This document shows, piece after piece, positions 44,919-63,192 of a stretch of 64,000 bases of DNA. The DNA lies in the NCBI GenBank assembly GCA_025559845.1, contig CP048469.1, positions 248,001 through 312,000 on the forward strand, in the 5' to 3' direction. The notes beneath the pieces were generated by a model that saw only the letters and a program-made list of their open reading frames with translations, was not told where the DNA came from and did not search any database. Each line of letters begins with the position of its first letter. Within the stretch, counting starts at the first letter, position 1. The position numbers and the translations under genes were made by a program. This DNA is from Agrobacterium tumefaciens (GTDB lineage Bacteria; Pseudomonadota; Alphaproteobacteria; Rhizobiales; Rhizobiaceae).

Positions 44919-44983
44919 TGCCCCTACTTGGCTGAGGAAAAGGGACATCCCGGATGGCGGGGAAGGACGTAACGGCGTGATGC
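44919..44983 (-). promoter_or_regulatory. Conserved flagellin leader of flaC
   Basis: It contains GCATCACGCC (44974-44983), then 20 bases, then CCGGGATGTCCC (44942-44953). The TGTCCCT of this element can pair with AGGGGCA at the ribosome site (44919-44925): 7 pairs, one G-U, about 15-base loop. Confidence 0.6.
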
Positions 44984-45103
44984 CTGTTAACCTCTTTTTC
45001 GTCTTGGTTAACCGATCCTTTCGATGGCCTCAGTTAAGGTAGGAATGGTTAACAAAGATTAAATGGAATTTACCGAAGTTAACAAGATGTGGCGGGTTAA
45101 ACG

Positions 45104-45131
45104 AAAAAAGGCCGCGCAGATGCGCGGCCTT
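45104..45131 (-). terminator. Terminator of flaB
   Basis: AAGGCCGCGCA / TGCGCGGCCTT, an 11-bp stem with a 2-base loop region, preceded on the plus strand by an A-run that gives a T-run on the minus strand. Confidence 0.92.
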
Positions 45132-45158
45132 CTTCGATTTTTTGTTTTGTCGGTCCGA

Positions 45159-46079
45159 TTAACGGAAGAGCGACAGAACGTTCTCGGAGTTGGAGTTGGC
45201 GATCGACAGAGCCTGAACGCCGAGCTGCTGCTGCGTCTGCAGAGCCTTGAGGCGGGTGGACTCTTCGTTCATGTCTGCGTCGACGAGGCGGCCAACGCCG
45301 GAGTCGATAGCGTCGGAGAGCTTCGTTGCGAAGTCTTCCTGCAGGCCGATACGCATGGACAGCGAACCGAGCTTGGCAGCGGCGCTGGTCATCTTCGTCA
45401 GAGCTGTTTCGACGGAGTAAAGCGCGTTGTCGAGATCATTGGCCGTGACGTCGAGGTCGAGAACAGAAATCTGGGTGTATGTTACGGCACCAACGGTGGT
45501 GGTTGCACCGGTAGCGTTCAGGATGCCAGAGTTTGCATCGATCGTGCCAGGTGTGCCTTCCGTGTAAAGCAGGGAGTCAACATCCAGTTCGTAGGTCGTG
45601 GATTTAACGCTGACGTTGCCGTCGCTGTCACGAACGAAGCCGGACACAACTGTCTTCGGGCCGGCTGCATCGGAAACGAGCCAGTTTTCGCCGCTGAACG
45701 ACGCGCCCGTGCCGATGGACTTGAGCTGCTCGAGAAGCTGCGTGACTTCTTCCTGGATCTTGGACTTGTCGACGCCCTCTTCCTTGGCAGCGACAACCTT
45801 TGCCTTGATTTCCTTTACGACTTCGATCGCGGATTCCATACCGGCATATGCGGTATCAACCTTCGAAGCGCCAAGGCCAAGGGCGTCCTGGACGGCGGAG
45901 AGAGCCATGTTGTCGGAACGCATGGTGGTCGCGATCGACCAGTAAGCAGCGTTGTCCGAAGCTTCGCCAACCTTCAGGCCGGAAGAAACGCGGCCCTGTG
46001 TGGTTTCCATGTCCTGACCGATCGTGCGAAGGGTCTGGAGAGCGGACATAGCGGCGATATTGGTAATAATGCTCGTCAT
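45159..46079 (-). CDS. flaB: Flagellin (FlaB-like)
   Basis: A 306-residue flagellin. Same D0/D1 architecture as its neighbours; very similar to the next flagellin over nearly the whole length, including the variable middle (LLYTEGTPGTIDANSGILNA). ATG 46079 gives MTSIITN; the frame from 46130 reads through the leader. Ends in LFR. It is flanked by terminators on both sides, so it is probably monocistronic. Confidence 0.94.
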   Translation of the reverse strand: MTSIITNIAAMSALQTLRTIGQDMETTQGRVSSGLKVGEASDNAAYWSIATTMRSDNMALSAVQDALGLGASKVDTAYAGMESAIEVVKEIKAKVVAAKEEGVDKSKIQEEVTQLLEQLKSIGTGASFSGENWLVSDAAGPKTVVSGFVRDSDGNVSVKSTTYELDVDSLLYTEGTPGTIDANSGILNATGATTTVGAVTYTQISVLDLDVTANDLDNALYSVETALTKMTSAAAKLGSLSMRIGLQEDFATKLSDAIDSGVGRLVDADMNEESTRLKALQTQQQLGVQALSIANSNSENVLSLFR

Positions 46080-46086
46080 AGTAGTG

Positions 46087-46154
46087 TGCCCCTTGAATGG
46101 CTGATTAAAGAAGGGACATTCCGGGTTCACCGGGAACGGCGCGCAGCGTCATGC
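46087..46154 (-). promoter_or_regulatory. Conserved flagellin leader of flaB
   Basis: GCATGACGCT (46145-46154), 20 bases, then CCGGAATGTCCC (46113-46124). TGTCCCTT of the element can pair with AAGGGGCA at the ribosome site (46087-46094): 8 pairs including one G-U, about 16-base loop. Confidence 0.65.
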
Positions 46155-46311
46155 TTGCTAACTGGCTGATTTTTAATGTTAGCTCGCCGTTTCAATGAGC
46201 TTAGGTAACGCCAGGTTGGTTAATGAATTGATAAGTCAGGAAGACAAATCTGTTGTTTTGCAAAATGAAATTGCAACCTTCGCGCGTGCGCGCGCGTAGT
46301 TCGAAATGTTT

Positions 46312-46352
46312 AAAAAAAAGATAAGGCCGCATCCGTATTCGGGATGCGGCCT
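46312..46352 (-). terminator. Terminator of flaA
   Basis: AGGCCGCATCC / GGATGCGGCCT, an 11-bp perfect stem with a 7-base loop, followed on the minus strand by TTATCTTTTTTTT. Confidence 0.93.
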
Positions 46353-46486
46353 CTCTTGTGCATTCAGTCCGATTCAGCCTCTCGGACTTGTATGCTTTCT
46401 GTCCGGATATGCATTTGGTCAGCCCCCGAATGCATATTGGAAGAAATGGTTCCCCCAGCCCCGAAGGACTATGAGATGCTCGGCTC

Positions 46487-47407
46487 TTAACGGAAGAGCG
46501 AGAGAATGTTCTGCGAGTCGCTGTTGGCGATCGACAGAGCCTGGATAGCGAGCTGCTGCTGCGTCTGAAGAGCCTTCAGCTTGGTGGACTCTTCGTTCAT
46601 GTCAGCGTCAACGAGACGGCCAACGCCCTGTTCGATGGTGTCGGACAGCTTGTCAGCGAAGTCGCTCTGCAGATCGATGCGCGAAGACAGCGAGCCGAGC
46701 TTTGCGCCAGCGCTGGTCATCTTCGTCAGAGCGGTTTCGACGGAGTACAGAGCGTTGTCGAGGTCGTCGGTGCCGACGTTGAGATCGAGAACCGAAATCT
46801 GGGTATAGGTCTTTGCGCCAACGGTGGTGGTTGCGCCGGTCGCGTTCAGGATGCCGGAGTTGGCATCGATCGTTCCAGGCGTACCTTCCGTGTAAAGCAG
46901 GGAGTCTGCATCCAGAGCGTAGTCCGTCGTCTTGACGCTGACGTTGCCATCGTTGTCGCGAACGAAGCCGGAAACAACCGTCTTGGTGGCGGCTGCGTCG
47001 GATACCAGCCAGTTTTCACCGTTGAACGATGCGCCCGTGCCGATGGACTTGAGCTGGTCGAGAAGCTGCGTGACTTCTTCCTGGATCTTGGCCTTGTCAA
47101 CGCCTTCTTCCTTGGCGGCGACAACCTTTGCCTTGATTTCAGTAACGACGTCGATTGCAGCGTCCATACCGGCGTATGCGGTATCAACCTTGGCAGCGCC
47201 CATGCCCAGCGCGTCAGAAACAGCGCCAAGAGCCTTGTTGTCAGAACGCATGGTGGTCGCGATCGACCAGTAAGCAGCGTTGTCCGAAGCTGCGCCAACC
47301 TTCAGGCCGGAAGAAATACGGTCCTGGGTGGTCGACATGTCGGAAGCGATGGTGCGCAGGGTCGAAAGAGCGGCCATTGCGTTGGTGTTGGTGAGAATGC
47401 TCGCCAT
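46487..47407 (-). CDS. flaA: Flagellin (FlaA-like, probable major flagellin)
   Basis: A 306-residue flagellin next to fliP, the position of flaA in rhizobia. N-terminal MASILTNTNAMAALSTLRTI and C-terminal ALQTQQQLAIQALSIANSDS are typical. ATG 47407 is used; the frame from 47476 reads through the leader. AAGGGACA ahead of it is the ribosome site. In Agrobacterium FlaA is the main filament subunit; here that is inferred from position only. Confidence 0.94.
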   Translation of the reverse strand: MASILTNTNAMAALSTLRTIASDMSTTQDRISSGLKVGAASDNAAYWSIATTMRSDNKALGAVSDALGMGAAKVDTAYAGMDAAIDVVTEIKAKVVAAKEEGVDKAKIQEEVTQLLDQLKSIGTGASFNGENWLVSDAAATKTVVSGFVRDNDGNVSVKTTDYALDADSLLYTEGTPGTIDANSGILNATGATTTVGAKTYTQISVLDLNVGTDDLDNALYSVETALTKMTSAGAKLGSLSSRIDLQSDFADKLSDTIEQGVGRLVDADMNEESTKLKALQTQQQLAIQALSIANSDSQNILSLFR

Positions 47408-47706
47408 AATAAATGTGTCCCTTGTTTTTAACGAGATACTGGAGTGGGGACATTCCGGACTCGTATTACCGGCCACAACGTTTCGGCTTCATGCCAATCG
47501 GTTCAGAAATACTTGTTTCCAGAAACCAAATCCGCTGCGTGTGATCGGAATTTCGCAGCGAAAAATTGCGCAATTATTAATTTGGTCGTTAAGAAATACT
47601 CGAGAATACTTATGGTTACTGTTAAGTTTACTTAAATGGTAAGTTTTTAATTTAAAACTATGGTTATCCAGCCCCTAGAGAAATTGGTAAGCAAGCCGTT
47701 AAAATG
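47408..47706 (-). promoter_or_regulatory. flaA leader and promoter region
   Basis: CCGGAATGTCCC (47447-47458) lies 39 bases before the ATG, and GCATGAAGCC (47485-47494) lies 26 bases further upstream. TGTCCC can pair with GGGACA of the ribosome site (47416-47421), 6 Watson-Crick pairs. The remainder (47500-47700) is AT-rich, with no gene; the promoter is presumably there. Confidence 0.6.
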
Positions 47707-47707
47707 C

Positions 47708-47738
47708 AAAAACCCCGCAGCACTGGGGCTGCGGGGTT
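47708..47738 (-). terminator. Terminator of the flgB-fliP operon
   Basis: AACCCCGCAG / CTGCGGGGTT, a 10-bp stem with an 8-base loop; on the minus strand it runs into TTTTTGCATTTT. It lies 41 bp after the fliP stop. Confidence 0.92.
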
Positions 47739-47779
47739 AAGAAACAGGGTTAATGGGTGTCAGTTCGGCACAGCGGCCG

Positions 47780-48517
47780 TTAATTGAACGATCTTACCAG
47801 GCTGCCAACAAGCAGGTTCCAGCCGTCAATCAGCACGAAGAAAAGAATCTTGAACGGCAGCGAAATCGAGGTCGGCGGAAGCATCATCATACCCATGGCC
47901 ATGGTGATGGTCGCGACGATCAGGTCGATGACGAGAAACGGCAGAATGATCAGGAAGCCGATTTCAAAACCGCGACGAATTTCCGAAAGCATGAACGCCG
48001 GAACCAGCACGCGGTAATCGATAACGTTCGCCGTCATCACTTCCTGTCCACGCTCACGGGCGATATCGACAAAAAGTTTGAGATCCTTGTCGCGGGTATT
48101 GGCGGACATGAAAGTACGGAACGGCTCAGCGATCCGCTCTACGGCTTGCTGCTCGTTGATCTGGTTCTGCAACAATGGCTGGACACCATCCGTCCATGCT
48201 TTGTCGAAGGTAGGCGACATGACGTAGAAGGTCATGAACATCGCCATCGACAGCAGGATCATGTTGGACGGTGTTGATGCGAGGCCCATGCCCGAGCGCA
48301 GGATCGAGAACGCGATCACGAAACGCGGAAAGCTCGTGACCATGATGAGAATGCCAGGAGCGACCGAAAGGACCGTCAGAAGTCCGAAAGTGCGGATAAT
48401 CCACGCCGCCACCGAACCGTCGATCTGTGTGTTGAACAAATCAGACGGAAATTGCTGGGCGTTGGCAAGACCCGGCAAGGCGAGAAGGACGGCGAGGGTT
48501 ACAAAAAATCGAATCAT
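47780..48517 (-). CDS. fliP: Flagellar export apparatus protein FliP
   Basis: A 245-residue FliP. It has a cleavable signal peptide (MIRFFVTLAVLLALPGLANA) and four membrane segments, with the family stretch ILIMVTSFPRFVIAFSILR and EIRRGFEIGFLIILPFLVID. FliP with FliQ and FliR forms the export gate core. It is the last gene of the ten-gene operon, overlapping fliL by 4 bases; fliQ and fliR are not in the window. Confidence 0.96.
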   Translation of the reverse strand: MIRFFVTLAVLLALPGLANAQQFPSDLFNTQIDGSVAAWIIRTFGLLTVLSVAPGILIMVTSFPRFVIAFSILRSGMGLASTPSNMILLSMAMFMTFYVMSPTFDKAWTDGVQPLLQNQINEQQAVERIAEPFRTFMSANTRDKDLKLFVDIARERGQEVMTANVIDYRVLVPAFMLSEIRRGFEIGFLIILPFLVIDLIVATITMAMGMMMLPPTSISLPFKILFFVLIDGWNLLVGSLVRSFN

Positions 48518-49020
48518 TCGATGACAAAGGTCCGGAACATGACCTTGGATACGCGCCCCTGTGAGCGCAGGTCAACTCGTTCCTGAATGTCATCCTTAAG
48601 ATATTGAAAGCCGCGTGGCCCTTCGAGTTGCTGGAGAGACACAGTCCTTACATAGGCGAGGATATCCTGATGGATATCTTCCGCCAGACCGACTTCGACA
48701 GGGCCTTTGAACATGAGAGCCACTTCCAGCCGCACCCAGTTGGTCGAGGGGTAGGCGAGGTTGGTGGTGATCGGGTCGAGCTGGACGATGCCGTTGGCTT
48801 CCGCGGGAATTTTCGGGATGCCTTCTTCCTTGCTCTCGCCATGCCCGCCTGCTGCGGCCTGCTGATGGGCAGCGGCTGTAGCGCCGGAGATCTTCGGCGC
48901 CATCATTCCGCCCAGCACCCAGCCACCACCGCCGCCGAGAACGGTCAGGATGGCAAGGCCGACGATGGTCATGACCAGAGGCGACGACTTTTTCTTTTCC
49001 TCTGCCTGTGCATTGTCCAT
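48514..49020 (-). CDS. fliL: Flagellar stator-associated protein FliL
   Basis: A 168-residue FliL: one N-terminal membrane span after a short Lys-rich segment, a low-complexity linker and a periplasmic domain (LEVALMFKGPVEVGLAEDIH, then VSKVMFRTFVIE). FliL rings surround the MotAB stators and support torque in several species. It overlaps fliP by 4 bases and lies 28 bp after flgH. Confidence 0.93.
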   Translation of the reverse strand: MDNAQAEEKKKSSPLVMTIVGLAILTVLGGGGGWVLGGMMAPKISGATAAAHQQAAAGGHGESKEEGIPKIPAEANGIVQLDPITTNLAYPSTNWVRLEVALMFKGPVEVGLAEDIHQDILAYVRTVSLQQLEGPRGFQYLKDDIQERVDLRSQGRVSKVMFRTFVIE

Positions 49021-49048
49021 GGCTTAGGTCCGCTCCATCAAGACAGCA

Positions 49049-49765
49049 TCAGATCGGCGAGAACAGGTCGACGACCTGCTGGCCAACCGGAGGCTGCTGA
49101 ACCTCGGTCAGGCGACCGCGACCACCGTAAGAGATGCGAGCCTCGGCGATGCGCTCGTAGGAGATCATGTTGTCGGCGTTGACGTCCTGCGGACGTACGA
49201 TACCGGCGACGTTCAGAATGCGGATCTCGTGGTTGACGCGGACTTCCTGCGAACCGCTGATGATCAGGTTGCCGTTCTCCAGGATGCCGGTGACCACGGC
49301 TGCGACGAGCAGCGTCAGCTTTTCCGAGCGCTTGGTCTTGCCCTTGCTCTGCGTATCGGTGTCCGAGCCATAGTTGATGCTGGAGTCCGCCTGCGGGTTC
49401 CAACCCAGAACCTGTGCATTGGCTTTCCAGTTCAGGCCACTGGAGTTGGTGCGGTTGCGCTCGGTCTCGTTGTCGAAATCGGCCTTGTCATTGATCTGGA
49501 TGTTCACCGTCAGAATGTCGCCAATGTTGAGCGCGCGCAGATCCTTGAAGAGCGCGCCCTGGGTATCGCTCCACAACGAGTAACCGCTTGCCATATGTTT
49601 CGGCTGTTTCGGATACATGCCCATCTGCGGCGTCTGGCTGAACTGCAGACCGCTGCCGATCGGGCTCATCGAAGGCGCGTTGCCGATTTCCTTCAGGGTC
49701 TGGTTGTTCTGGCAGCCGGCAAGCAGCGCGAGCGGCAAAAGGAGGGCCGGAATACGAGAGGTCAT
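49049..49765 (-). CDS. flgH: Flagellar L-ring lipoprotein FlgH
   Basis: A 238-residue outer-membrane lipoprotein. The lipobox is LLAGC with the acylated Cys at C18. It continues with the FlgH family core (YSLWSDTQGALFKDLRALNI, GDILTVNIQINDKADFDNET). It builds the L ring through which the rod passes. It overlaps motE by 4 bases. Confidence 0.96.
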   Translation of the reverse strand: MTSRIPALLLPLALLAGCQNNQTLKEIGNAPSMSPIGSGLQFSQTPQMGMYPKQPKHMASGYSLWSDTQGALFKDLRALNIGDILTVNIQINDKADFDNETERNRTNSSGLNWKANAQVLGWNPQADSSINYGSDTDTQSKGKTKRSEKLTLLVAAVVTGILENGNLIISGSQEVRVNHEIRILNVAGIVRPQDVNADNMISYERIAEARISYGGRGRLTEVQQPPVGQQVVDLFSPI

Positions 49766-50298
49766 GAAGGGTCCTTCGAGGTGTTCGGGTCGGTAGCTTG
49801 CGACATGATGCCGGCGACAAGGGCTGCCTTGGCAGCATCCATCTCGCTGAGGATCAGGCCCGACTGACGGGGTGGTAGCTGCATGATGATCGCGGCTGCA
49901 ATTTCCTCATGCATTTTCTCAAGCTGAGGCGCTGCCGCATCGGCCTTCATCGTTTTGTAGACGTCGACCAGATTGGCTTTTGCCTGATTGAGGAAGTGAT
50001 TGCGGCGTGCCAGCCAGTCTTCGTATTCCGCCTTGCGGTTTTCAAGAACGGTGATGCGCTCGTTGACATCAGCCTGCAGTTTCTCAAGTTCCTGTTTCTG
50101 CAGCAGGTAACGCTGATCGCGGGCCGCGTCGGCAATGTTGGTGCAGAAGCGCTGGATTTCATCCTGCGTACTGAGTTCGGAGACGACGTTCTGCTGGCTT
50201 TCCGCCGTTGCGGCGGGAAGCAGGAACAGCAGAGACGCGACTGCGGCAAACCGGCAGAGGTTATCGGAAAGACTGCGGGTGCGTTGAACGTTCATCAT
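49762..50298 (-). CDS. motE: MotE, periplasmic motility chaperone
   Basis: A 178-residue exported protein: signal peptide (hydrophobic FAAVASLLFLLPAATAE), then a long coiled coil (about 55-115) and a helical C-terminal segment (EEIAAAIIMQLPPRQSGLIL) that resembles the MgtE-N/FliG-like repeat. In Sinorhizobium MotE is a chaperone for MotC, the rhizobia-specific periplasmic motor protein; motC is not in the window. It overlaps flgI and flgH by 4 bases each. Confidence 0.9.
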   Translation of the reverse strand: MMNVQRTRSLSDNLCRFAAVASLLFLLPAATAESQQNVVSELSTQDEIQRFCTNIADAARDQRYLLQKQELEKLQADVNERITVLENRKAEYEDWLARRNHFLNQAKANLVDVYKTMKADAAAPQLEKMHEEIAAAIIMQLPPRQSGLILSEMDAAKAALVAGIMSQATDPNTSKDPS

Positions 50299-51416
50299 TG
50301 CAGCACGAGCTCCGCTTGAAGGGCACCGGCAGATTTGATGCCTTGCAGGATGGCGATGATGCCGTCTGCCTTGAGGCCAATGCTGTTGAGGCCGGCAACC
50401 AGTGTGCGAAGGTCAGGACCTTCCACAATGGCGACATTGCTGCCTTCCTGCATGGCCATGATGTCGGTCTGCGGCTGAACGGCTGTCTCGCCGCGTGAGA
50501 ACGGTGCCGGCTGGATCACCTGCGGCGTTTCTGTAACCTGCACGGTCAAGGTGCCGTAGCTGACCGCTACGCGGGAAATACGGACATCCGCACCGATCAC
50601 GATCGTTCCCGTGCGCTCATTGATGACAACCTTGGCCGGCGTGTCGGTCTCGACAGTCAGATTTTCGATTTCGGCCATCAGGCGTGTCAGATCGGCGGTA
50701 CGCGGCTTCTGAACACCGATTTCCTGCGAATCGCGCGGTTCGGCAATCGCGTCGCCATATCGGGCGCGGGCGAATGCGTTGACGACATCGGCCACCCGGA
50801 CGGCGGTCGAGAAATCGGGGTTTCTCAGTTGCAGGACGAGATTGACCGAATCCTTGAACTTCGAAGGCAGCTCACGCTCGATGATTGCGCCGTTCGGCAC
50901 GCGGGCGGAGGTCGTGACACCCTGCGTCAGTGTCGCAGCATCACCCTGCGCGGAAAAACCGTTGACGATCAGGGTGCCCTGCGCAACGGCGTAGATCTGA
51001 CCGTCCGCGCCCGAAAGCGACGTCATGATGAGGGTACCGCCGCGCAACGAAGAGGCGTCGCCGAGCGAACTGACGGTCACGTCAACGCGGCTGCCGGGGC
51101 TCGCAAAAGGCGGCAGGTTCGTCGTGACCATCACGGCCGCGATGTTCTTTGCGTTCGACTGGCCGCCCTGTGTTGTAATGCCGAGGTTCTGCAGCATGGC
51201 GCGCATCGACTGCTCGGTGAACGGCGATGAGCGCAGACTGTCGCCCGTGCCTTGCAGGCCGACGACGAGACCGTAACCGATGAGCTGGTTGTCGCGACCG
51301 GCCTGCAGCGAGGCAATGTCCTTGATCCGCGACGTATCGGCCTGAACCGGGAGCGCGGAGAGAAAGGGGAGGGCTGCGGCCAGAAACGCCGTGGCCAGAA
51401 TACGCAAACTTCTCAT
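50295..51416 (-). CDS. flgI: Flagellar P-ring protein FlgI
   Basis: A 373-residue FlgI with a signal peptide (to about 26, PVQA) and the typical mature start DTSRIKDIASLQAGRDNQLI followed by GYGLVVGLQGTGDS. It forms the periplasmic P ring, with FlgA as chaperone. Both neighbours overlap it by 4 bases. Confidence 0.97.
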   Translation of the reverse strand: MRSLRILATAFLAAALPFLSALPVQADTSRIKDIASLQAGRDNQLIGYGLVVGLQGTGDSLRSSPFTEQSMRAMLQNLGITTQGGQSNAKNIAAVMVTTNLPPFASPGSRVDVTVSSLGDASSLRGGTLIMTSLSGADGQIYAVAQGTLIVNGFSAQGDAATLTQGVTTSARVPNGAIIERELPSKFKDSVNLVLQLRNPDFSTAVRVADVVNAFARARYGDAIAEPRDSQEIGVQKPRTADLTRLMAEIENLTVETDTPAKVVINERTGTIVIGADVRISRVAVSYGTLTVQVTETPQVIQPAPFSRGETAVQPQTDIMAMQEGSNVAIVEGPDLRTLVAGLNSIGLKADGIIAILQGIKSAGALQAELVLQ

Positions 51417-51898
51417 TTCGCCATCACCTGGATAGTGCCGTCCTGCATCACGGTGCCATTCACAATGACGCCGGAATCGATATTGCGCACGCGCACCACA
51501 TCGCCCATCGAGCCATCAGTCATTGGGGTGCCGGATGCCATGAGTGTCATATTGCCGATCGTGAAGACGAGCTTGACGTTGGTTCCTCGTGTCACCAGCG
51601 ATGGAACACGCAGTGCCGCGATCGGGATGGTGCGCCCGGGAAGCAGGGTTTGTTTCGAAACCATGCCATCCACTTCGCTGACATGGCTGGCGTAACCCGA
51701 CGAGAGATTGGGGTTGGTCACTTCCACCGGCTTGACCTGGTCGGGCGTAATGGTTTCGCCCGGATAGATCGTGCGCGTCGGAACCAGCGCCATCGGAGAC
51801 TGCGCCGCAGCGGCGAAGGCCGTCAATGAAATGGCGGACGTCAGGAACAAACGGACGAGTGCCGTTCTGTAGCTGCTATTTCTCTGGCTAAACGTCAT
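51413..51898 (-). CDS. flgA: P-ring assembly chaperone FlgA
   Basis: A 161-residue exported protein with a signal peptide (cleavage about AAAA-QSP) and a SAF-like domain (PTRTIYPGETITPDQVKPVE). It is shorter than the about 219-residue enterobacterial FlgA, lacking its N-terminal region, as usual in alphaproteobacteria. It helps FlgI polymerise. It overlaps flgI by 4 bases and follows flgG by 20 bp. Confidence 0.92.
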   Translation of the reverse strand: MTFSQRNSSYRTALVRLFLTSAISLTAFAAAAQSPMALVPTRTIYPGETITPDQVKPVEVTNPNLSSGYASHVSEVDGMVSKQTLLPGRTIPIAALRVPSLVTRGTNVKLVFTIGNMTLMASGTPMTDGSMGDVVRVRNIDSGVIVNGTVMQDGTIQVMAK

Positions 51899-51918
51899 GT
51901 TCGCCCGCCTTTCCGTTG

Positions 51919-52707
51919 TTACTTCAGGTTCTTGCTGACAATCGATGCCATTTCGTCAGCCGTGGTAATGACCTTGGAGTTCATTTCGTACGCACGCTGC
52001 GCCGTGATGAGATCCGTGATTTCCTTGACGGCATCGACGTTGGAGCCTTCGAGATAGGATTGCTTGATGTATCCGTAGCTCGGATCATCCGGCACGCCGA
52101 TCACGGCATCGCCCGACGCCGGTGTCTGTGCGAAGAGGTTATCGCCGAGCGGCTTCAGGCCAGCCTCGTTGGCAAAGTTCGCAATCGTCAACTGACCGAG
52201 TTCGGTGAACTCCGTTGCGTTACCAATACGTGCCGTCACCTGCCCGGTGCGGGTGATGGTGATGTCGGTGGCGTCAGTCGGAATGTTGACGTTCGGGATG
52301 ACGTTATAGCCATCAATCGTCACCAGATCGCCGTCGGCATTCTTGTTGAATGCGCCGGCACGGCTGTAAAGCGTCGAGCCGTCGGCGGCTTCGATCTGGA
52401 ACCAGCCCTGGCCGATGATTGCAACGTCGAGATTGTTTCCGGTCTCGATCAGGTTGCCCTGGGTGTGAATATTGCGGACAGCCGATGTCTGCACACCAAG
52501 ACCGATATTGGCGCCTTCCGGAACGATCGCCTGGTTGGCGCGGTTCGGCACGCCCTGCATACGCTCAGTCTGATAAAGAAGGTCGGTAAACTCCGCACGT
52601 GCGCGCTTGTAGCCGGTGGTGTTGATGTTCGCGATGTTGTTGGCGATGACTTCCAGGTTGGTCTGCTGGGCGTCCATACCGGTCGCAGCGATGGCAAGAG
52701 CTCTCAT
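51919..52707 (-). CDS. flgG: Flagellar distal rod protein FlgG
   Basis: A 262-residue rod protein with the N-terminal rod signature [20 protein letters not shown] and the C-terminal [20 protein letters not shown]. It forms the distal rod crossing the periplasm. It lies between fliE (21-bp gap) and flgA (20-bp gap). The central [13 protein letters not shown] region and length fit FlgG rather than FlgF. Confidence 0.96.
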
Positions 52708-52728
52708 GTCTTTACTTTCCTGCTGGTG

Positions 52729-54605: not shown

Positions 54606-56000
54606 TCAGACCCTTCTCTGGTTGGCCTGCGCCTGCATGCCGCCACGCAAGGCGGTTGCCAGATCGGCATAGGCGTCCTCGGCTGCCGGATCGCTCGGAA
54701 GCTGTTTCAGCGTTTCGTAGATAATGGGAACCTGTTTGACCGCCATATCGAGATCAGGATCGGTTCCCTGCCGGTAGCCGCCGATGAGGCGAAGATCGCG
54801 TGTCTCTTCGAAGCGGTGCACCAGCGCCTTCAGGCGGGATACCAACTTCTCCTGATCCGGTGTCCATGCCTTCTTGGCGAGACGCGAGATGGATGACAAC
54901 GGGTTGATGGGCGGATAACGCCCTTCTTCGGCGAGGCTTCTATCCAGTACGATGTGGCCATCGAGAATACCGCGGGTGGAGTCGGCGATCGGGTCATTGT
55001 GATTATCGCCGTCGACCAGAATGGAAACGATTGCGGTGATGGTGCCGGTGCCTTCGGCGCCAGGACCCGCACGCTCCAGCAGGCGCGGCAACTCGGTAAA
55101 GACCGACGCCGGGTAACCACGTGCCACGGGCGGTTCACCAGAGGCAACCGCCACTTCACGGATCGCATGTGCAAAGCGCGTGACGCTGTCGATGATGAGA
55201 AGAACGTTGTCCCCCTTGTCGCGGAAATGCTCTGCGATGGTGACAGCGGACAACGGCGCCATCTTGCGCAACATCGGGCTCTCGTCACTCGTCGCGACGA
55301 CGGCGATCGACTTCACCATATTGTCGCCCATCGTGTCTTCGATGAACTCGCGCACTTCACGTCCGCGTTCGCCGACAAGGGCAATCACTACCTTGTCGAA
55401 GGCATCGGCCTTGGCCAGCATCGAAAGCAGGGTCGATTTGCCGACGCCCGAACCGGCGAAGATGCCGAGGCGCTGACCCAGGCAAAGTGGCGAAAAGATA
55501 TCGATTGCCCGAACACCTGTCTTGAATGGTGTTTCGACCCGCTTTCGCGTCATGGACGGAGGGGCATTGTTGGAAATCGAGCGTCGATCCGTCCCCGAGG
55601 ACAGGGGGCCGCCGCCATCGATTGGTTCGCCAAGCGCATTGATCGTGCGTCCGCACCAGCTATCGTCGGGTGCAACGCGAAAAGCCCCCTTGCGGATCAC
55701 CGTGTCGTGGATACCGATAGGCTCGCCCGGCTCGATAGGGCAGACATAGCAGATATCCGGTTCGACACGGACCACTTCGCCGAGATGGATTCCGGTCGCA
55801 CTGCGATGCGCGACGAACTCGCCAAGCCTGACATGACGCGAAAGACCGGAAACCGTGTAGTGTCCGGCTGCAATTGTCCGCACATGACCGCCCGGAGCAA
55901 TCGAAAAATCCGGGTTGGCATAGTGTTCCGCCAGACTGGCAAGCTGGGCGAGTTTGGGTGAAATCGCCTTGGCCGAAAGCAGGGAGTCCTGCGCTTTCAT
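54606..56000 (-). CDS. fliI: Flagellum-specific ATPase FliI
   Basis: A 464-residue ATPase of the F1-beta/type III secretion family. The Walker A is GSGVGKST (about 183-190) and the Walker B is in NVLLIIDSVTRFAH. It energises flagellar protein export from the cytoplasmic face. It lies 11 bp after flgF. The usual regulator fliH is not found next to it. Confidence 0.96.
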   Translation of the reverse strand: MKAQDSLLSAKAISPKLAQLASLAEHYANPDFSIAPGGHVRTIAAGHYTVSGLSRHVRLGEFVAHRSATGIHLGEVVRVEPDICYVCPIEPGEPIGIHDTVIRKGAFRVAPDDSWCGRTINALGEPIDGGGPLSSGTDRRSISNNAPPSMTRKRVETPFKTGVRAIDIFSPLCLGQRLGIFAGSGVGKSTLLSMLAKADAFDKVVIALVGERGREVREFIEDTMGDNMVKSIAVVATSDESPMLRKMAPLSAVTIAEHFRDKGDNVLLIIDSVTRFAHAIREVAVASGEPPVARGYPASVFTELPRLLERAGPGAEGTGTITAIVSILVDGDNHNDPIADSTRGILDGHIVLDRSLAEEGRYPPINPLSSISRLAKKAWTPDQEKLVSRLKALVHRFEETRDLRLIGGYRQGTDPDLDMAVKQVPIIYETLKQLPSDPAAEDAYADLATALRGGMQAQANQRRV

Positions 56001-56011
56001 CCGTCAAATCC

Positions 56012-56746
56012 TCAGCGGGCGCCGCCCAGTGTCTTGATGCCTTCAGCGAAGGTGGATTCCGTGTCGCGCATCAACGAAGAGATGCTTTCGAACGCACGGT
56101 TGACCTGGATGAGCTGCGTCATCTGCGAAATGCCGTTGACGTTGGACTCTTCGACATAGCCCTGAACGACACCGATCTCGTGATTGTTGGCAACGGGAAC
56201 GGGCTGTGCGACAGGCTTTACGCCGCTGTTTGGATGGCGCAGGAAACCTTGAGAAAGATCTGCCTGAAAGATGCCGAGCGTTGCGGCGATATTGTCATTC
56301 TGGCGGATTGCTCCATCGAGACCGACAGTGATCGGGCCGCCATTCGGGTTCAACTGGATGGGGCCACCGCCCGCGTCGAGAACCGGATACCCGTTTGAGG
56401 AAATCAGCGCGCCATCCGGGCGCATGCTGAAGCGGCCATCACGGGTCAGCACCTGGCCATCGGGCGTGTCCAGCGAAAACCATGCGTCGCCCTTGATGGC
56501 GAAATCGAAAGAGTTGCCGGTCTGCTCGAAAGCGCCCTGTTGCGTGGAAAGATAGTCGTTACCCTGCGAAACGAACGCGATCTTGGCGTTCATGTCATTG
56601 CGGGTCTTGGCAATCATCTCATCGAATTTGACCTCGGAGCCGCGAAAGCCGACCGTGTTCACGTTCGCCATGTTGTCGGAGATGGTGGTGAGACGACGCT
56701 CAAGCGCGATCTGCGAGGAAAGGGCGACGTAAAGTCCGGATTGCAT
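56012..56746 (-). CDS. flgF: Proximal rod protein FlgF
   Basis: A 244-residue rod protein with N-terminal ERRLTTISDNMANVNTVGFR and C-terminal ISQMTQLIQVNRAFESISSL. It differs from FlgG in its variable middle and position. It begins 1 bp after the DUF1217 gene and lies 11 bp before fliI. Confidence 0.94.
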   Translation of the reverse strand: MQSGLYVALSSQIALERRLTTISDNMANVNTVGFRGSEVKFDEMIAKTRNDMNAKIAFVSQGNDYLSTQQGAFEQTGNSFDFAIKGDAWFSLDTPDGQVLTRDGRFSMRPDGALISSNGYPVLDAGGGPIQLNPNGGPITVGLDGAIRQNDNIAATLGIFQADLSQGFLRHPNSGVKPVAQPVPVANNHEIGVVQGYVEESNVNGISQMTQLIQVNRAFESISSLMRDTESTFAEGIKTLGGAR

Positions 56747-56747
56747 A

Positions 56748-57527
56748 TCATTTGCCTCCGAGTTTCAGGGAATTGATGGAAAGCAGCAGGTCCGGCGAGA
56801 TGCCGTAGCCGCTGGAAGAGCCGAAAACGGCGAGTGGGTCGTATGTTGTCGAAGGATTTTCCATTTCCCACATGATGGTGAAGCGCTCGAGGAGCTTTCC
56901 CACCTTCTCGGGGTCTTGCAGATCCTTGATATTGATCGTTTTTTCGATGAGGGCCGACTGTTTGTCGACATCGGTCGCGGCGAACTCGTCGGGCAGGTTG
57001 AAAGCCGTGCGGAAGACCTGCGCCAGCGCGTCATCCGCCAGAAAATCCATGCCGGAGGTGATCGTCGGCGCCATCCGCTCGAAATAAAGCGCGAGCCGCA
57101 CGCCGGTATTGTCGTCGCCGGCCGATTGTTCCAGCGTCGTGCGGTTATATTTGCTGACGACGCCGGATTTCGCCGCGTCCGTCGAGGTTGCCGCTGCACC
57201 GTCCGCAGCAAAATTCAGAGATTTCGCCAGGTCGGCATAACGGCTGTCTGACAGCTTGTTGGCAAAGGCGTCCTTGTTGTCCACGCCCTCCGTCAGAACC
57301 TTCCGGATGAAGGCCTTGGCATAGGCCATGTCTTCCAGGCCGTGTGCCTTGAGGGCGTAATTATAAAGCCGCGTGTCGGCCATGAAATCGTCGATGGATT
57401 TCACGTCCGATATCTTTGACAAATAGTATTCGGTTTCCCGCGCCACATCCGGTTGCTTGGACACGCGGTCGAGCGATTTGCCGATGTCTTGGCTGATCAA
57501 CTGGTAGCTGGTGTAGGTCGACGTCAC
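56748..57527 (-). CDS. DUF1217 family flagellar-cluster protein
   Basis: A 259-residue, mostly helical, acidic protein; the start TSTYTSYQLISQDIGKSLDR matches the DUF1217 family, found in flagellar clusters of alphaproteobacteria, function unknown. The GTG at 57527 is chosen because the family N-terminus begins there; the long open frame up to 57680 adds Cys- and Arg-rich residues and overlaps the divergent motA promoter region. No signal peptide or membrane span. It is the first gene of the flgF-fliI unit. Confidence 0.85.
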   Translation of the reverse strand: MTSTYTSYQLISQDIGKSLDRVSKQPDVARETEYYLSKISDVKSIDDFMADTRLYNYALKAHGLEDMAYAKAFIRKVLTEGVDNKDAFANKLSDSRYADLAKSLNFAADGAAATSTDAAKSGVVSKYNRTTLEQSAGDDNTGVRLALYFERMAPTITSGMDFLADDALAQVFRTAFNLPDEFAATDVDKQSALIEKTINIKDLQDPEKVGKLLERFTIMWEMENPSTTYDPLAVFGSSSGYGISPDLLLSINSLKLGGK

Positions 57528-57707
57528 GGGGAATACCGTTCTCTTGTTGATGCAAGGCACAAATCTGCCTTTGCACCCATTGTGGCGCCGGTTGCTTGCG
57601 CGAAACTGTTTGCCGCAACGGTGATGAACGCGGGCCGCGGACAGGTTCACGCAAGCCACATTTTCTAGAGATGGCCGCATGGAACACTGTTCGGGCGTGG
57701 GCGATCA
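57528..57707. promoter_or_regulatory. Divergent promoter region between the DUF1217/flgF and motA units
   Basis: A 180-base gap between divergent starts (GTG at 57527 minus, ATG at 57708 plus) must carry the promoters of both flagellar units. No consensus boxes are clear by eye. Confidence 0.55.
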
Positions 57708-58580
57708 ATGAATATTGTAATTGGACTTGTAATCACCTTCGGCTGCATCATCGGCGGCTACATGGCGATGGGCGGTCATCTGGACGTCCTCGTTCAGCCG
57801 TTTGAATTGGTGATCATCGGAGGCGCAGGCCTCGGCGGCTTCATCATGGCAAACCCGATGAAGGTCGTGAAAGATTCGGGTAAGGCGCTGGGAGAGGCTT
57901 TCAAGCACTCGGTTCCCAAGGAGCGCAATTATCTCGACGTTCTCGGCGTGCTCTATTCGCTGATGCGCGATCTGCGCACGAAGTCGCGAAACGAGATCGA
58001 AGCGCATATCGACAACCCGGACGAATCCTCGATCTTCCAGGCGGCACCCTCGGTTCTGAAGAACAAGGAACTGACCTCTTTCATCTGTGACTATGTGCGC
58101 CTGATCATCATCGGCAACGCGCGTAGCCACGAGATCGAGGCGCTGATGGACGAGGAAATCGAAACCATCCTGCACGACAAGCTGAAGCCCTACCATGCGA
58201 TTACGACCATGGGCGATTCCTTCCCGGCCATCGGTATCGTCGCGGCGGTTCTGGGTGTTATCAAGGCCATGGGCAAGATCAACGAATCGCCGGAAGTGCT
58301 TGGCGGCCTGATCGGCGCGGCGCTCGTCGGCACCATGCTCGGCATCATTCTGTCCTACTCGATCTGCAACCCGCTCGCATCGCAGGTCAAGATCGTCCGC
58401 ACCAAACAGCACCGTCTCTATATCATCGTCAAGCAGACGCTGATTGCCTACATGAACGGCTCCGTGCCGCAGGTGGCGCTGGAATACGGCCGCAAGACGA
58501 TCTCCAACTACGAGCGTCCTTCGATCGATGCCGTTGAGCAGGAAATGATGAATCCTGGCGGCGAAAACAAGGCGGCATGA
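57708..58580 (+). CDS. motA: Flagellar motor stator protein MotA
   Basis: A 290-residue MotA with four membrane segments (start [29 protein letters not shown]) and a large cytoplasmic loop that meets Fli[21 protein letters not shown] is the third span. It forms the proton channel with MotB, which is not in the window. It overlaps fliM by 4 bases. Confidence 0.97.
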
Positions 58581-59536
58581 CGATGGCACAAGCGGCACAG
58601 CAACACGCACCGACAATCGATTCCGCACTGCTGGCGAAACTCACGGGCGGTCTGTCCGACCGCAAGACGGTCGCCAAGATCGGCACGGACATCGGTCGCC
58701 TCTACAGCGAGTTCCTTCCGGATATCTTCCATAGCGAAACCGGAATCGCCATCGAGGTCGAATATGTCGGCTCCGAATCGGGACTGATGACCGATCTGAT
58801 CGCAAATGTCGGCGAGAATTTCTCGGTTGCCGATTGCTCGCTACGCAACTGGTGCCCCAACTTCATGATGGCGCTCGGCAATGGTTTTGTCATTGCCTTG
58901 ATGGAACGCATGCTCGGTGCCGCTCCCGACACCATCGGCGAGCCTGATGAGCGCAGCCTGTCGCACATCGAAATTGATCTTGCCGCAATGGTCATGGGTC
59001 GCATCGCAGGCGTTCTGCGTTCCGGCGTGAACGCACCTGGTGGTTTTGAGGCGACGATCGATCCGCCTTTCAATTCCAACGGCAAAAGTGCCTTCGATGA
59101 GCAACTCGCCGGCCTTTATGGCATGACGATCCGCATGAAGATCGTCATCGGCAAGGTCGCCTCCGAATTCGTTCTTATCGTTCCGCAACGTCCGTTGCTC
59201 AAGACGTCCATTGTGGCTCCCAAGCCTTCCGCCCAGGCGTTGAAGAAGCAGGAAGAGTGGATGGACATGATTTCGGAGCAGGTAAAGCGATCGCAGGTCA
59301 CGCTCGAAGCGCGAATCACGCTCGAGACGCTGACGCTGAAGACGATCTCGAGACTGATGGTGGGCGACGTCATTCCATTCCAGGCCGCAAAACAGGACGA
59401 TATCGGTGTTGAGGTGAGCGCCAATGGCTCGAAGCTCTACAATTGCGAGTTCGGCAAGTCCGGTGAGCGCTACATGGTTCGTGTCAAAAACAATGTCAGT
59501 ACGGATGACGAGATCCTACGACATTTGATGAGTTAA
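58577..59536 (+). CDS. fliM: Flagellar switch protein FliM
   Basis: A 319-residue FliM. The middle CheC-like domain (about 50-225) and C-terminal FliN-like domain (about 240-319, [20 protein letters not shown] and [19 protein letters not shown]) are present. The N-terminus is [20 protein letters not shown], without the usual LSQxEIDALL peptide that binds CheY-P in E. coli. It lies in the motA-fliM-fliN-fliG order, overlapping motA. Confidence 0.93.
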
Positions 59537-59601
59537 AACTTGGCCTACCCTTCGCGGGTTTTGGGCAGGCTGACGCAAGTTTCAAAGGGAATAATCAGCG
59601 C

Positions 59602-60156
59602 ATGGCTACGAAGAAAACACCTGTGACCGACGATACGACGCTGCCGTCACTTGATGACGGCAACGATATCGATCAGGCTATCGGCGATCTGCGCGGCGTT
59701 CTGAAAACGGACGCGGAAGGCTCTCTTTCCGGTTTTGGCGACTTCGGTGATTTCGGAGACGCAGGCGATGCAGCGCAGGATACGGATCTTTCAGCTTTCG
59801 GCGGTGGCGCCGGGAGCTTTGCAAGCGACAGCTTCGCAATGGACGACTTTTCGGCAACGTCCGATGTTGCTGGCGTCAAGGCGCCACTCGGCAGCGGTCT
59901 GTCGGACAATCTCGATCTCATCATGGACATTCCGATTGATGTCCAGATTGTTCTCGGCACAAGCCGCATGCTGGTGTCGGGTCTGATGAGCCTCGAGGAA
60001 GGCGCAACCATCGCGCTCGACCGTAAGATCGGCGAACCCGTCGAGATCATGGTCAATGGTCGCCGCATTGCGCGCGGCGAGATTACTGTTCTTGAAGATG
60101 ACGATACGCGCTTCGGCGTAAAATTGATTGAAGTACTGAGTACGAGAAAAGCCTGA
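59602..60156 (+). CDS. fliN: Flagellar switch protein FliN with long acidic N-terminus
   Basis: A 184-residue FliN. The C-terminal SpoA domain (about 100-184: [40 protein letters not shown]) is standard. The first about 95 residues are acidic and Gly-rich with [13 protein letters not shown] and further Phe/Asp/Ser repeats, longer than in E. coli FliN (137 residues). The 65-bp gap after fliM holds no clear terminator. Confidence 0.94.
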
Positions 60157-60183
60157 TCCCTGTGGGGACGGAGAGGAAAGACC

Positions 60184-61227
60184 ATGATGGACTTTGAGGA
60201 TTTCGGTAACCCTGTGGCGGGGAAGCCGTTGTCTCAGGCCGACAAGGCGGCCGCTGTGCTTCTGGCCATGGGAAAAGGCGTCGCAGGCAAGCTGCTGAAA
60301 TTTTTCACGCAGCATGAACTGCAGATGATCATTTCCTCGGCCCAGACGCTGCGCGTCATTCCTCCCGACGAGCTGGCTCAGATCGTTGCCGAGTTCGAGG
60401 ACCTGTTCACGGAAGGAACAGGTCTCATGGACAACGCCAAAGCCATCGAAAGCATTCTCGAAGAAGGGCTTACGCCGGAAGAGGTGGACAGCCTTCTCGG
60501 CCGTCGCACGGCCTTCCAGGCTTACGAAGCGTCGATCTGGGATCGGCTTCAGGATGCAGAGCCTGGTTTTGTCGGAAAGTTCCTGCTGCGCGAACATCCG
60601 CAGACCATCGCTTATATCCTCTCCATGCTGCCATCTTCCTTCGCGGCGAAGGTTCTTCTGACAATTCCCGAAGAACAGCGTGCCGATATCATGAACCGAA
60701 CGGTCAACATGAAGGAAGTCAGCCCGACGGCCGCTCAGATCATCGAAAAACGTGTGGTGAACCTCATCAACGAAATCGAGGCAGAGCGGAATGCGGGTGG
60801 CTCCACGAAGGTCGCGGACCTCATGAACGAACTCGACAAGCCGCAGGTCGATACCCTGCTCAGCTCTCTCGAAACGCTCAGCAAGGAAGCCGCCAACAAG
60901 GTCAAGCCGAAGATCTTCCTCTTCGACGACCTCATGTTCATGCCGCAGCGCAGCCGTGTCATGCTTCTCAACGACGTTTCCGGCGATGTACTCACCATGG
61001 CGCTGCGTGGCGCCACGGCCGAGATCAAGGAATGTGTCCTGTCCAGCATCAGCCCGCGTCAGCGCCGCATGATCGAATCGGACCTCTCCGTTCCGCAGGC
61101 ATCGATCAACACCCGCGAAGTTGCCATCGCCCGCCGCGCCGTCGCACAGGAAGCCATCCGTCTGGCGAATTCCGGACAGATCCAGCTCAAGGACGTTGCC
61201 GAAGCCACCCAATCGGCAGCCGCCTGA
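60184..61227 (+). CDS. fliG: Flagellar rotor switch protein FliG
   Basis: A 347-residue FliG with N-terminal FliF-binding domain (about 15-110), middle domain with EHPQT and (about 195-235) and C-terminal torque domain (about 250-335) containing FLFDDLMFMPQRSRVMLLND. It transmits torque from MotA and is part of the C ring. It starts 27 bp after fliN. EHPQTIAYILSMLP is the conserved middle motif. Confidence 0.96.
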   Translation: MMDFEDFGNPVAGKPLSQADKAAAVLLAMGKGVAGKLLKFFTQHELQMIISSAQTLRVIPPDELAQIVAEFEDLFTEGTGLMDNAKAIESILEEGLTPEEVDSLLGRRTAFQAYEASIWDRLQDAEPGFVGKFLLREHPQTIAYILSMLPSSFAAKVLLTIPEEQRADIMNRTVNMKEVSPTAAQIIEKRVVNLINEIEAERNAGGSTKVADLMNELDKPQVDTLLSSLETLSKEAANKVKPKIFLFDDLMFMPQRSRVMLLNDVSGDVLTMALRGATAEIKECVLSSISPRQRRMIESDLSVPQASINTREVAIARRAVAQEAIRLANSGQIQLKDVAEATQSAAA

Positions 61228-61307
61228 GCGGAAGCCGGTTGATAACCCGGCCGTGTACCGGGAAGGGCGTTGCGATCCGCAACCCTGATCGTTAGTTTCC
61301 TGACAAC

Positions 61308-61337
61308 GGGCCTGCCGGTATCGGTGGGCCCTTTTTT
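61308..61337 (+). terminator. Strong terminator-like hairpin between fliG and flhB
   Basis: GGGCCTGCCG (61308-61317) pairs with CGGTGGGCCC (61322-61331): ten pairs, two G-T, GTAT loop, then TTTTTT. Only 17 bp separate its T-run from the flhB start codon. Confidence 0.88.
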
Positions 61338-61354
61338 ATCGCGGGGAACGGGCC

Positions 61355-62434
61355 GTGTCGGACGAGGACAAGGACAGTAAAACAGAAGCCCCCACGGAGA
61401 AAAAAATCCGTGATGCGGCCGAAAAAGGCAATCTTCCGTTTTCCAGGGAAGTGCCGATCTTTGCATCCTCGCTCGCCTTTTACTGCTATCTCGTCTTTTT
61501 CCTGCCTGAAGGTGCCGGGCGCATCGGCGAAACGTTGAAAGACCTTTTCGGTCAGCCGGAGCAATGGAACCTGAGTGCCAGCCCGGATGTAACGTCCCTG
61601 CTGTTCTTTCTCGGCATGGCAATCGCCAATCTGCTCTTGCCGGCCATGTTGCTGTTCATGGTTTTCGGTCTGGCTTCATCCATTTTCCAGAACCTGCCGT
61701 CACCGGTGCTGGAACGGGTACGACCGCAATGGTCTCGCGTGTCCCCGGCGGGAGGGTTCAAACGCATCTACAGTGTCCAGGGTTTTGTCGAATTCGGGAA
61801 GTCTCTTTTCAAGATCCTGATTGTCTCGATCATCATGTTCTTCGCGCTGCGCGGAGAATATTACAACATCATCGATCTGATGTTTTCCGACCCTCAGGTC
61901 ATTTTCGTCAAGCTGATCGAGGTCGTCAAAAAAATGATGATCGTCATTCTGCTGTCGACGGCACTTCTGGCGGCGGTTGACCTGTTGTGGACGCGCCATC
62001 ACTGGTTCAGCCAGTTGAAGATGAGCAAGCAGGAAGTGAAGGACGAATTCAAGCAGTCGCAGGGCGACCCGGTCGTCAAATCCCGCCAGCGCTCGATTGC
62101 CCGCGATCGTGCTCGCCGCCGCATGATCAACAATGTCCCACGCGCCACGCTGGTGATCGCCAACCCGACGCACTTTGCGGTGGCACTCCGTTATGTCCGC
62201 GAAGAAAGCGACGCGCCGATCGTCGTCGCCAAGGGGCAGGACCTTATCGCATTGAAAATCCGTGAGATTGCGGAGAAGAACGATATCCCCGTTTTTGTCG
62301 ATCCTCCGCTTGCGCGCTCCATGTTTGCGCAAGTCTCGACCGATAATGTGATTCCACCAGTCTTTTACAAGGCTGTGGCTGAACTCGTGCATCGGGTTTA
62401 CGCCAGGAAATCACCGAAATTACGGGTTCAATAA
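61355..62434 (+). CDS. flhB: Flagellar export gate protein FlhB
   Basis: A 359-residue FlhB. It starts [20 protein letters not shown], typical of the family, has four membrane segments (about 30-210) and a cytoplasmic domain with the autocleavage motif NPTH ([12 protein letters not shown], about 268-271), where cleavage switches export specificity. The start is GTG at 61355. It follows fliG by 127 bp with a terminator-like hairpin in the gap. In Sinorhizobium flhB lies next to visR, here it is 33.6 kb away. Confidence 0.95.
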
Positions 62435-62438
62435 TTAG

Positions 62439-62876
62439 ATGAAAAAATGCCCTTATTCTGAACAGCGAGAAATGATCGTAGCAGAGGCTATCAACCCTGT
62501 AGCGACGGAATTGCGCCTGCTCGATCCGGCTGATTTGATTTCATTGCTCCGTTTCGAGTGCTACGGCAGTATCGCCGACCTCGTGTCTTCGGCTGCGGAG
62601 CTTTATTACCATCCCGGCACCATCAATTTCGGTGCGGGTGGGGAATATAAATTAGAATGGGAAGGCGTTCCCGAAGTTGTTATCGATCTGGAATTGAAAC
62701 CACGTGGCGCCACTGTCTATGCGCAATTGACGCTCGCCGCAGAACATGCGGCAATTGAAATCAATCATATTTCCTTCCAGAACCCATCGGATAATCCGGA
62801 CGAGAATACGGAGTTTCTGCGTCGCAGCTTCCGCGAGGCACGTTTTGTCTCCAGTCGTCAGGGCGAGGCGGCCTGA
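62439..62876 (+). CDS. Hypothetical protein downstream of flhB
   Basis: An open frame of 145 residues, 4 bp after flhB. ATG 62472 (MIVAEAINPVATEL) is a likelier start than ATG 62439, although neither has a strong ribosome site. It is soluble and acidic, with a Gly-rich turn (YYHPGTINFGAGGEYKLEWE) and a beta-rich middle. I recognise no named family. The position before the terminator and flaD suggests co-transcription with flhB. Confidence 0.75.
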   Translation: MKKCPYSEQREMIVAEAINPVATELRLLDPADLISLLRFECYGSIADLVSSAAELYYHPGTINFGAGGEYKLEWEGVPEVVIDLELKPRGATVYAQLTLAAEHAAIEINHISFQNPSDNPDENTEFLRRSFREARFVSSRQGEAA

Positions 62877-62905
62877 TTCTCTTCAGGTTGTATGGTGAAA
62901 AAATG

Positions 62906-62943
62906 CTGCGCCTGCCGCGTGTGTCAGGCGCAGTCTTCGTTTG
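62906..62943 (+). terminator. Terminator of the motA-flhB unit
   Basis: CTGCGCCTG / CAGGCGCAG, a 9-bp perfect stem with a 10-base loop, followed by TCTTCGTTT. Confidence 0.8.
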
Positions 62944-63192
62944 TGGAGCGATTTCTGCCTCACCACAGGCTCTAGCTTGCCTGAAACCTTCGGCATTGAT
63001 TGAATCTACTAACGAAAATTAAGGAATGGCTTGCAAATCGGCTGAGTTGTTTGTTACGTATCGAATTAACGATTTGTTAACGAACGACAGGTCGCGATGG
63101 CGGTTTCAAGCCATCGCTGATGCGCATGATGCTTCTGGTCGTTTCCGGCAAGGCGCCGGATTTTCCCTGACAGTACGAACTGAGCGGAACTC
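62944..63192 (+). promoter_or_regulatory. flaD leader and promoter region
   Basis: It has GCATGATGCT (63124-63133), 22 bases, then CCGGATTTTCCC (63156-63167), matching the two-part leader of the other flagellins with two changes in the second element. TTCC of the element could pair with GGAA of the ribosome region (63186-63189), a much weaker pairing than in the others. The AT-rich 62990-63085 stretch may hold the promoter. Confidence 0.55.

Follow-up and report, generated by a model that had tools for sequence, protein, structure and literature searches.

The flagellin genes flaA, flaB, flaC and flaD of Agrobacterium tumefaciens all begin within a 64,000-nucleotide stretch of contig CP048469.1 (assembly GCA_025559845.1, contig positions 248,001 to 312,000; hereafter the window), and each is preceded by a short leader for which two hairpins, P1 and P2, are predicted. 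In our interpretation, this is probably a leader of lateral-type flagellin mRNAs in which P2 masks the ribosome-binding site until a trans-acting factor, likely FlbT together with FlaF, permits translation. Comparison with related genomes suggests that the leader behaves as a conserved RNA structure, the support being stronger for P1 and weaker for P2.

Anatomy of the leader

From its 5′ side, the leader comprises an upstream element, GGCATGANGCC, then P1, P2 directly after P1, and the start codon. P1 has the form ACCGG...CCGGT with a loop of median 7 bases (range 2-18), and P2 the form TGTCCC...GGGRCA with a loop of median 20, its 3′ arm being the Shine-Dalgarno region; the start codon follows a median of 7 bases beyond GGGRC. 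A preliminary description of this DNA had noted that the TGTCCC part of the conserved 12-mer CCGGAATGTCCC can pair with the Shine-Dalgarno region. The adjoining half, CCGGA/T, pairs with an upstream CCGG and is an arm of P1. That hairpin had gone unseen there, as had the half-leader of a chemoreceptor gene and the occurrence of the leader across the order Hyphomicrobiales.

Within the window, the 12-mer is exact in the flaA and flaB leaders (47447-47458 and 46113-46124, both minus strand), has one change in flaC (44942-44953, minus) and two in flaD (63156-63167, plus), and ends 39, 33, 29 and 25 bases, respectively, before the ATG codons at 47407 (minus), 46079 (minus), 44912 (minus) and 63193 (plus). 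Exact matches to GCATSANGCY include 47485-47494, 46145-46154, 44974-44983 and 63124-63133, which leave gaps of 26, 20, 20 and 22 bases to the 12-mer in the flaA, flaB, flaC and flaD leaders. The preliminary description had placed both elements correctly in all respects, and its 6, 8 and 7 pairs between TGTCCC and the Shine-Dalgarno region of flaA, flaB and flaC are likewise correct; it left out flaD, where UUCC pairs with GGAA of the ribosome site in the minimum-energy fold. The predicted features are as follows.

47485-47495, minus strand: flaA upstream element GGCATGAAGCC (either part of a promoter, an operator, or a 5′ hairpin of 3 bp)
47469-47472, minus: flaA P1 5′ arm CCGG (sequence and covariance model)
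47455-47458, minus: flaA P1 3′ arm CCGG (sequence and covariance model)
47447-47452, minus: flaA P2 5′ arm TGTCCC (sequence and covariance model)
47416-47421, minus: flaA P2 3′ arm GGGACA, within the ribosome site AAGGGACA at 47416-47423 (sequence and covariance model)
46487-47407, minus: flaA flagellin gene
46145-46155, minus: flaB upstream element AGCATGACGCT
46130-46133, minus: flaB P1 5′ arm CCGG (covariance model; the minimum-energy fold pairs these bases elsewhere)
46121-46124, minus: flaB P1 3′ arm CCGG (covariance model)
46111-46118, minus: flaB P2 5′ arm TGTCCCTT (minimum-energy fold and covariance model)
46087-46094, minus: flaB P2 3′ arm AAGGGGCA, the ribosome site (8 pairs in the minimum-energy fold; covariance model)
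45159-46079, minus: flaB flagellin gene
44974-44984, minus: flaC upstream element GGCATCACGCC
44958-44961, minus: flaC P1 5′ arm CCCG (minimum-energy fold)
44949-44952, minus: flaC P1 3′ arm CGGG (minimum-energy fold)
44941-44947, minus: flaC P2 5′ arm TGTCCCT (minimum-energy fold and covariance model)
44919-44925, minus: flaC P2 3′ arm AGGGGCA, the ribosome site (minimum-energy fold and covariance model)
43974-44912, minus: flaC flagellin gene
63124-63133, plus: flaD upstream element GCATGATGCT
63144-63149, plus: flaD P1 5′ arm TCCGGC (minimum-energy fold and covariance model)
63155-63160, plus: flaD P1 3′ arm GCCGGA (minimum-energy fold and covariance model)
63163-63166, plus: flaD short P2-like 5′ arm TTCC (minimum-energy fold)
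63186-63189, plus: flaD P2-like 3′ arm GGAA, in the ribosome site (minimum-energy fold)
63193-64000, plus: flaD flagellin gene, extending past the window end

In the whole 6.3-Mb genome CCGGRATGTCCC has four occurrences, of which the flaA, flaB and flaC leaders account for three. At up to 3 mismatches the 12-mer by itself has 73 matches in the window where 69.5 are expected, which is no enrichment, and the case therefore rests on position, conservation and comparison. By eye, a terminator-like hairpin with a trailing T-run can be seen on the minus strand both between flaA and flaB (about 46312-46351) and between flaB and flaC (45104-45131, where weak Rfam matches also fall), so that each of these flagellin genes looks like a separate transcription unit.

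For the comparison, 61 genomes of the family were drawn, 50 of which had a flagellin match, and stretches from 40 genomes plus 74 named loci provided 399 flagellin starts, corresponding to 328 unique and 209 non-redundant leaders. Among the 328, CCGGWATGTCCC is found at up to 2 mismatches in 255 and GCATGANGCY at up to one mismatch in 277 (perfect in 219), in both cases far more than in shuffled sequence. Pairing was counted in 160 leaders, left from the 209 once leaders exceeding 3 mismatches in the first word, or one in the second, had been taken out, a filter that preselects the 5′ arm of P2 and not its 3′ arm. At least 6 contiguous P2 pairs form in 137 of the 160, compared with 4.5% after shuffling of the 3′ part. 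The third P2 position is TA in 78 leaders, TG in 72, CG in 7 and otherwise in 3. The closing pair of P1, tallied in 163 leaders (the ten commonest types make up 160 cells), is composed as follows: T stands opposite A 52 times and G 10 times, G opposite C 12 times and T twice, and C opposite G 9 times and A once, while A is unpaired in 69 of its 74 cells in the register tallied. Two side observations were made by eye. In leaders of the flaB type, P1 may alternatively form as TTCC(C)GG/CCGGAA, with one C bulged. Leaders L193 (genome G187), L195 (G151) and L270 (G416) look like a distinct subtype, in which P1 is kept, TGTCAAA or TGCAA replaces TGTCCC, and a GGTA(C/T)GNGTA-like stretch precedes the ATG.

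Covariation of the predicted hairpin arms

The leaders used to build a covariance model, R1, were 118 from Rhizobiaceae; their alignment has 22 cells changed on both sides of a pair against 7.6 in shuffles. The model was then the basis of a broader alignment, A2, of 111 distinct model-aligned rows from 119 matches, mostly of the wider order, which takes in the five leaders of the window and four other chemoreceptor leaders. In A2, 11 of 12 pairs have changed on both sides, with 73 such cells against 15.4 in shuffles, none of 500 shuffles scoring as high and all slid registers being worse than the predicted pairing.

A further null takes the phylogeny into account, the observed substitutions being dropped again on the flagellin gene tree over a sequence-only alignment of the 209 leaders, chemoreceptor leaders excluded. 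None of 200 simulations reached the covariation observed for P1, and the P1 closing pair ranks first among all 2556 column pairs of this alignment. Double changes within P1 include GUCGG/CCGAC, GCUGC/GCAGC and GCCGA/UCGGC. Since the arms of P1 covary, both should be part of the RNA, which would probably put the start of the transcript ahead of the first CCGG; transcription would begin either in the interval from GGCATGANGCC to P1 or before the two.

For P2, 95% of the core cells pair, against a simulation mean of 56% and a simulation maximum of 95%. A partner-swap test, in which the 3′ arm is left unaligned, compared 42 variants of the P2 5′ arm, which score 12.62 with their own ribosome site and 10.84 with swapped ones (0 of 5000 permutations), and the own site likewise paired better when all 209 leaders were used. 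Here too double changes are found, such as UGUUCC/GGAACA, UGUCUUU/AAAGACG and UGUCCU/AGGACA. Altogether, the proposal of the preliminary description that pairing is kept as bases change is borne out for the most part by the pairing counts, by A2 and by the partner swap, and more weakly by the tree-aware test, and the covariation across relatives that it called for is supported for P1 and, in view of the result given below, less so for P2.

Single leaders fold in various ways. Both hairpins appear in the minimum-energy folds of L199, L217, L279 and flaC, P1 without P2 in L181, and P2 without P1 in flaB, where the upstream bases pair otherwise; L265 shows P1 with a different arrangement of the remainder, and flaD shows P1 with its short P2-like helix. 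No conserved alternative pairing that could serve as a built-in switch was seen in the leaders, though no systematic search for one was made.

Distribution of the leader and its chemoreceptor variant

In the 6.3-Mb genome of the window, R1 finds five places at E<=0.001, namely the leaders of flaB (64 bits), flaA (62), flaC (56), a chemoreceptor gene (39) and flaD (35, more exactly 34.7); another flagellin-domain gene, at G000:C2:1347965-1348567 on the second contig and with a 632-aa frame, has no R1 match. The model scored the best 11 to 36 candidates per genome, so counts over the order are lower bounds: at least 19 of 121 Hyphomicrobiales genomes match at E<=0.001; a larger draw gives at least 112 of 397 at E<=0.01, with at least 15 families represented at E<=1e-3. 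A class-wide draw of 289 genomes, which includes that of the window (G000) and at least 3 others of the order among the rows listed, returned the window's genome and a single weak match; the latter precedes, by eye, a gene encoding dUTPase and was rejected as a false positive. From 82 fetched loci, 114 matches outside the window were aligned, places lying in two loci being counted twice. Of these, 107 are at a flagellin start and 4 precede genes for methyl-accepting chemotaxis protein (MCP) signalling domains, the remaining 3 being one flagellin leader cut by the locus end and two weak matches. Comparison thus shows a leader nearly restricted to flagellin genes, with a few chemoreceptor leaders in addition.

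In the window's chemoreceptor leader, GGCATGACGCC, the spacing and a P1 of 8 pairs are all retained; P2 is absent and the start codon lies about 134 bases past P1. The features are the following.

16050-16134, plus strand: R1 match, chemoreceptor leader
16051-16061, plus: upstream element GGCATGACGCC (sequence and covariance model)
16070-16077, plus: P1 5′ arm GTACCGGG (8 pairs in the minimum-energy fold)
16083-16090, plus: P1 3′ arm TCCGGTAT (minimum-energy fold and covariance model), with no P2
16224-17849, plus: protoglobin-type chemoreceptor (MCP) gene, downstream of the P1-only leader and upstream of cheA
18527-20776, plus: cheA

The presence of P1 without P2 in this leader makes it more likely that P1 is a 5′-end or recognition module shared by the mRNAs of late flagellar genes, and P1 appears to be such a module.

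Possible function and reader of the leader

A model consistent with these data is that P1 would mark the 5′ part of late flagellar mRNAs, whereas P2 would act as a translation gate chiefly for flagellin, lowering translation by masking the ribosome site. A trans-acting factor, likely FlbT with FlaF, would then alter P2 or the lifetime of the mRNA. Several results weigh against this reading. The highest covariation counts, those of A2, derive from an alignment fitted to the structure. In the tree-aware test the P2 core alone gives p=0.085 (16 of 200 simulations), and none of the pairs taken singly reaches significance once all pairs are considered, the best being the P1 closing pair with E=0.18 (and again this pair in a smaller leader set, with E=0.68). 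Just 23 of the 42 P2 5′-arm variants have a better partner in their own ribosome site than in the median foreign site, and TGTCCC is lost in some leaders (G151, G187 and G416). The minimum-energy fold of flaA contains neither hairpin, the window leaders are not clearly better folded than shuffles (z of 0.54 for flaA, -0.45 for flaB, -0.28 for flaC and -1.81 for flaD), and RNAalifold on alignment A1 gave P1 and not P2. Lastly, P2 is not strictly flagellin-only, the chemoreceptor leader of G411 having a perfect one (UGUUCC/GGAACA). In this leader (L285:220-325) a 25-codon open reading frame, possibly a leader peptide or a decayed start, follows directly, about 210 bases before the MCP start, and in G172, where the MCP start comes directly after the leader, the model aligns a P2-like pairing. 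Set beside the window's chemoreceptor leader, these two cases indicate that P2 accompanies an immediate start codon and not flagellin alone.

Part of this evidence would also be expected if GGCATGANGCC, the two CCGG boxes and TGTCCC were promoter, operator or activator sites of late flagellar transcription, the complementarity to the ribosome site being a by-product. The distance from the GCATGA start of GGCATGANGCC to the first CCGG is a near-constant 21-23 bases in 199 of 209 leaders, the element is nearly palindromic, the chemoreceptor leader has the same GGCATGANGCC together with P1, and sequence conservation extends over much of the leader, with P2 alone missing significance in the tree-aware test. 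For S. meliloti, CtrA motifs have been reported at flaA, flaC and flaD (PMC3616915). GGCATGANGCC itself may be a -10 region, an operator, another DNA site or a small 5′ RNA hairpin, the third, outer pair of its stem covarying as GC, AT and TA across the 209 leaders. We nevertheless regard an explanation of the whole leader by DNA sites as unlikely. The second CCGG shifts relative to the first with the varying loop while its flanking bases covary as pairs, and the arms of P2 change together in distant families. Moreover, Shine-Dalgarno function does not require the C and A that follow GGG, and these are kept in 150 and 126 of the 160 leaders, respectively.

Turning to the candidate reader, the FlaF and FlbT domains (PF07309 and PF07378) adjoin at G000:C1 322.8-323.6 kb, about 11 kb right of the window. 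Among the 121 genomes, FlbT is found in 80 and the flagellin domain in 91, and 18 of the 19 leader-bearing genomes have FlbT, the exception being a draft 86% complete. A tree was made from 22 chosen FlbT loci, 20 of which were recovered (10 leader-associated and 10 not; two without the leader dropped out), and the leader-associated rows form one clade (100/100, 10 of 10 rows), an exact split by leader. This subfamily is 23-32% identical to the other FlbT type in the rows compared. G117 and G201 carry both types, and in them the lateral-type copy is the one found 12-13 kb from the leader, the other being megabases away. The tree excluded G181, G182, G193 and G202, for which match length, a rough indicator, suggests a lateral FlbT and the 121-genome draw gave no leader match; for G181 the 397-genome draw gave a weak one (E=0.005). 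The split would follow equally well from joint inheritance of an entire lateral flagellar system (PMC6406911) and from direct recognition. In a predicted model the helical domain of FlbT resembles the flagellin chaperone FliS; a test of whether the N-terminus of FlbT is akin to CsrA gave no support. FlbT is a likely candidate for the reader of the leader.

It is improbable, in our view, that the leader is a structured mRNA element with a reader other than FlbT, be it a temperature-melting hairpin, a small RNA target, or a P1 that stabilises the message while P2 only slows initiation. In favour of it, P2 is short, contains G-U pairs and spans a long loop, the folds of the window leaders do not surpass those of shuffles, and P1 stands without P2 on the chemoreceptor leader; against this, a Rfam scan of the window found only two tRNAs reaching any gathering score and no thermometer or small-RNA family, and the association with flagellin genes and a single FlbT clade is more in keeping with a flagellar reader.

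The closest known system is that of Caulobacter, where FlbT is reported to bind the flagellin 5′ untranslated region, and the present leader is accordingly placed as a variant of this control. As with the fljK-type region controlled by FlbT and FlaF, it is a flagellin 5′ leader in a genome encoding both proteins. In contrast, Caulobacter flagellins use RpoN promoters according to passages of PMC3930126, the class-wide draw gave R1 no genuine hit outside the genome of the window, and the FlbT of that genome belongs to a separate subfamily. Flg-Rhizobiales RNA (RF01736) is likewise a candidate structured RNA from Rhizobiales, with a name that refers to flagellar genes, but one of 141 positions and three stem-loops, as described in part of PMC3765529. 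At its gathering score of 55 bits it has no match in the window, and none even at E<=10 in 44800-47700 and 63000-63300; none of 41 relatives' genomes is over the cut-off, and the single weaker match (G095, L149) lies, by eye, upstream of a rod protein gene and not of flagellin. Control of flagellin leaders by CsrA and FliW is a further known arrangement. In Bacillus and Campylobacter, flagellin expression is likewise controlled via the mRNA leader, as noted in passages of PMC4894983, with a regulator different from FlbT. No earlier description of the two-hairpin leader was found in the open-licence literature, which leaves its absence in print unproven.

A more far-reaching version of the FlbT reading is that we face a new RNA family of at least 15 Hyphomicrobiales families, the partner of the lateral FlbT, with P1 for recognition of flagellin and chemotaxis mRNAs and P2 as a gate that FlbT would release according to free flagellin; modelled in this detail, the proposal is doubtful. 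For studying the action of FlbT on flagellin mRNA, the leader offers concrete targets. Passages of a 2015 review (PMC4347634) describe FlbT as without an RNA recognition motif and its mechanism as unresolved, its targets being degraded in Caulobacter while activation is proposed in Brucella, and parts of PMC8781033 and PMC8429497 report that FlbT is required for flagellin production in Brucella and for the lateral flagellins of Bradyrhizobium. With separable hairpins and natural pair-swapped variants, it can be asked which hairpin FlbT reads and whether it represses or activates via P2. The leader likely helps the cell to time production of flagellin, the highly abundant protein of the swimming filament, and it could explain how several separately transcribed flagellin genes come under a single translational control.

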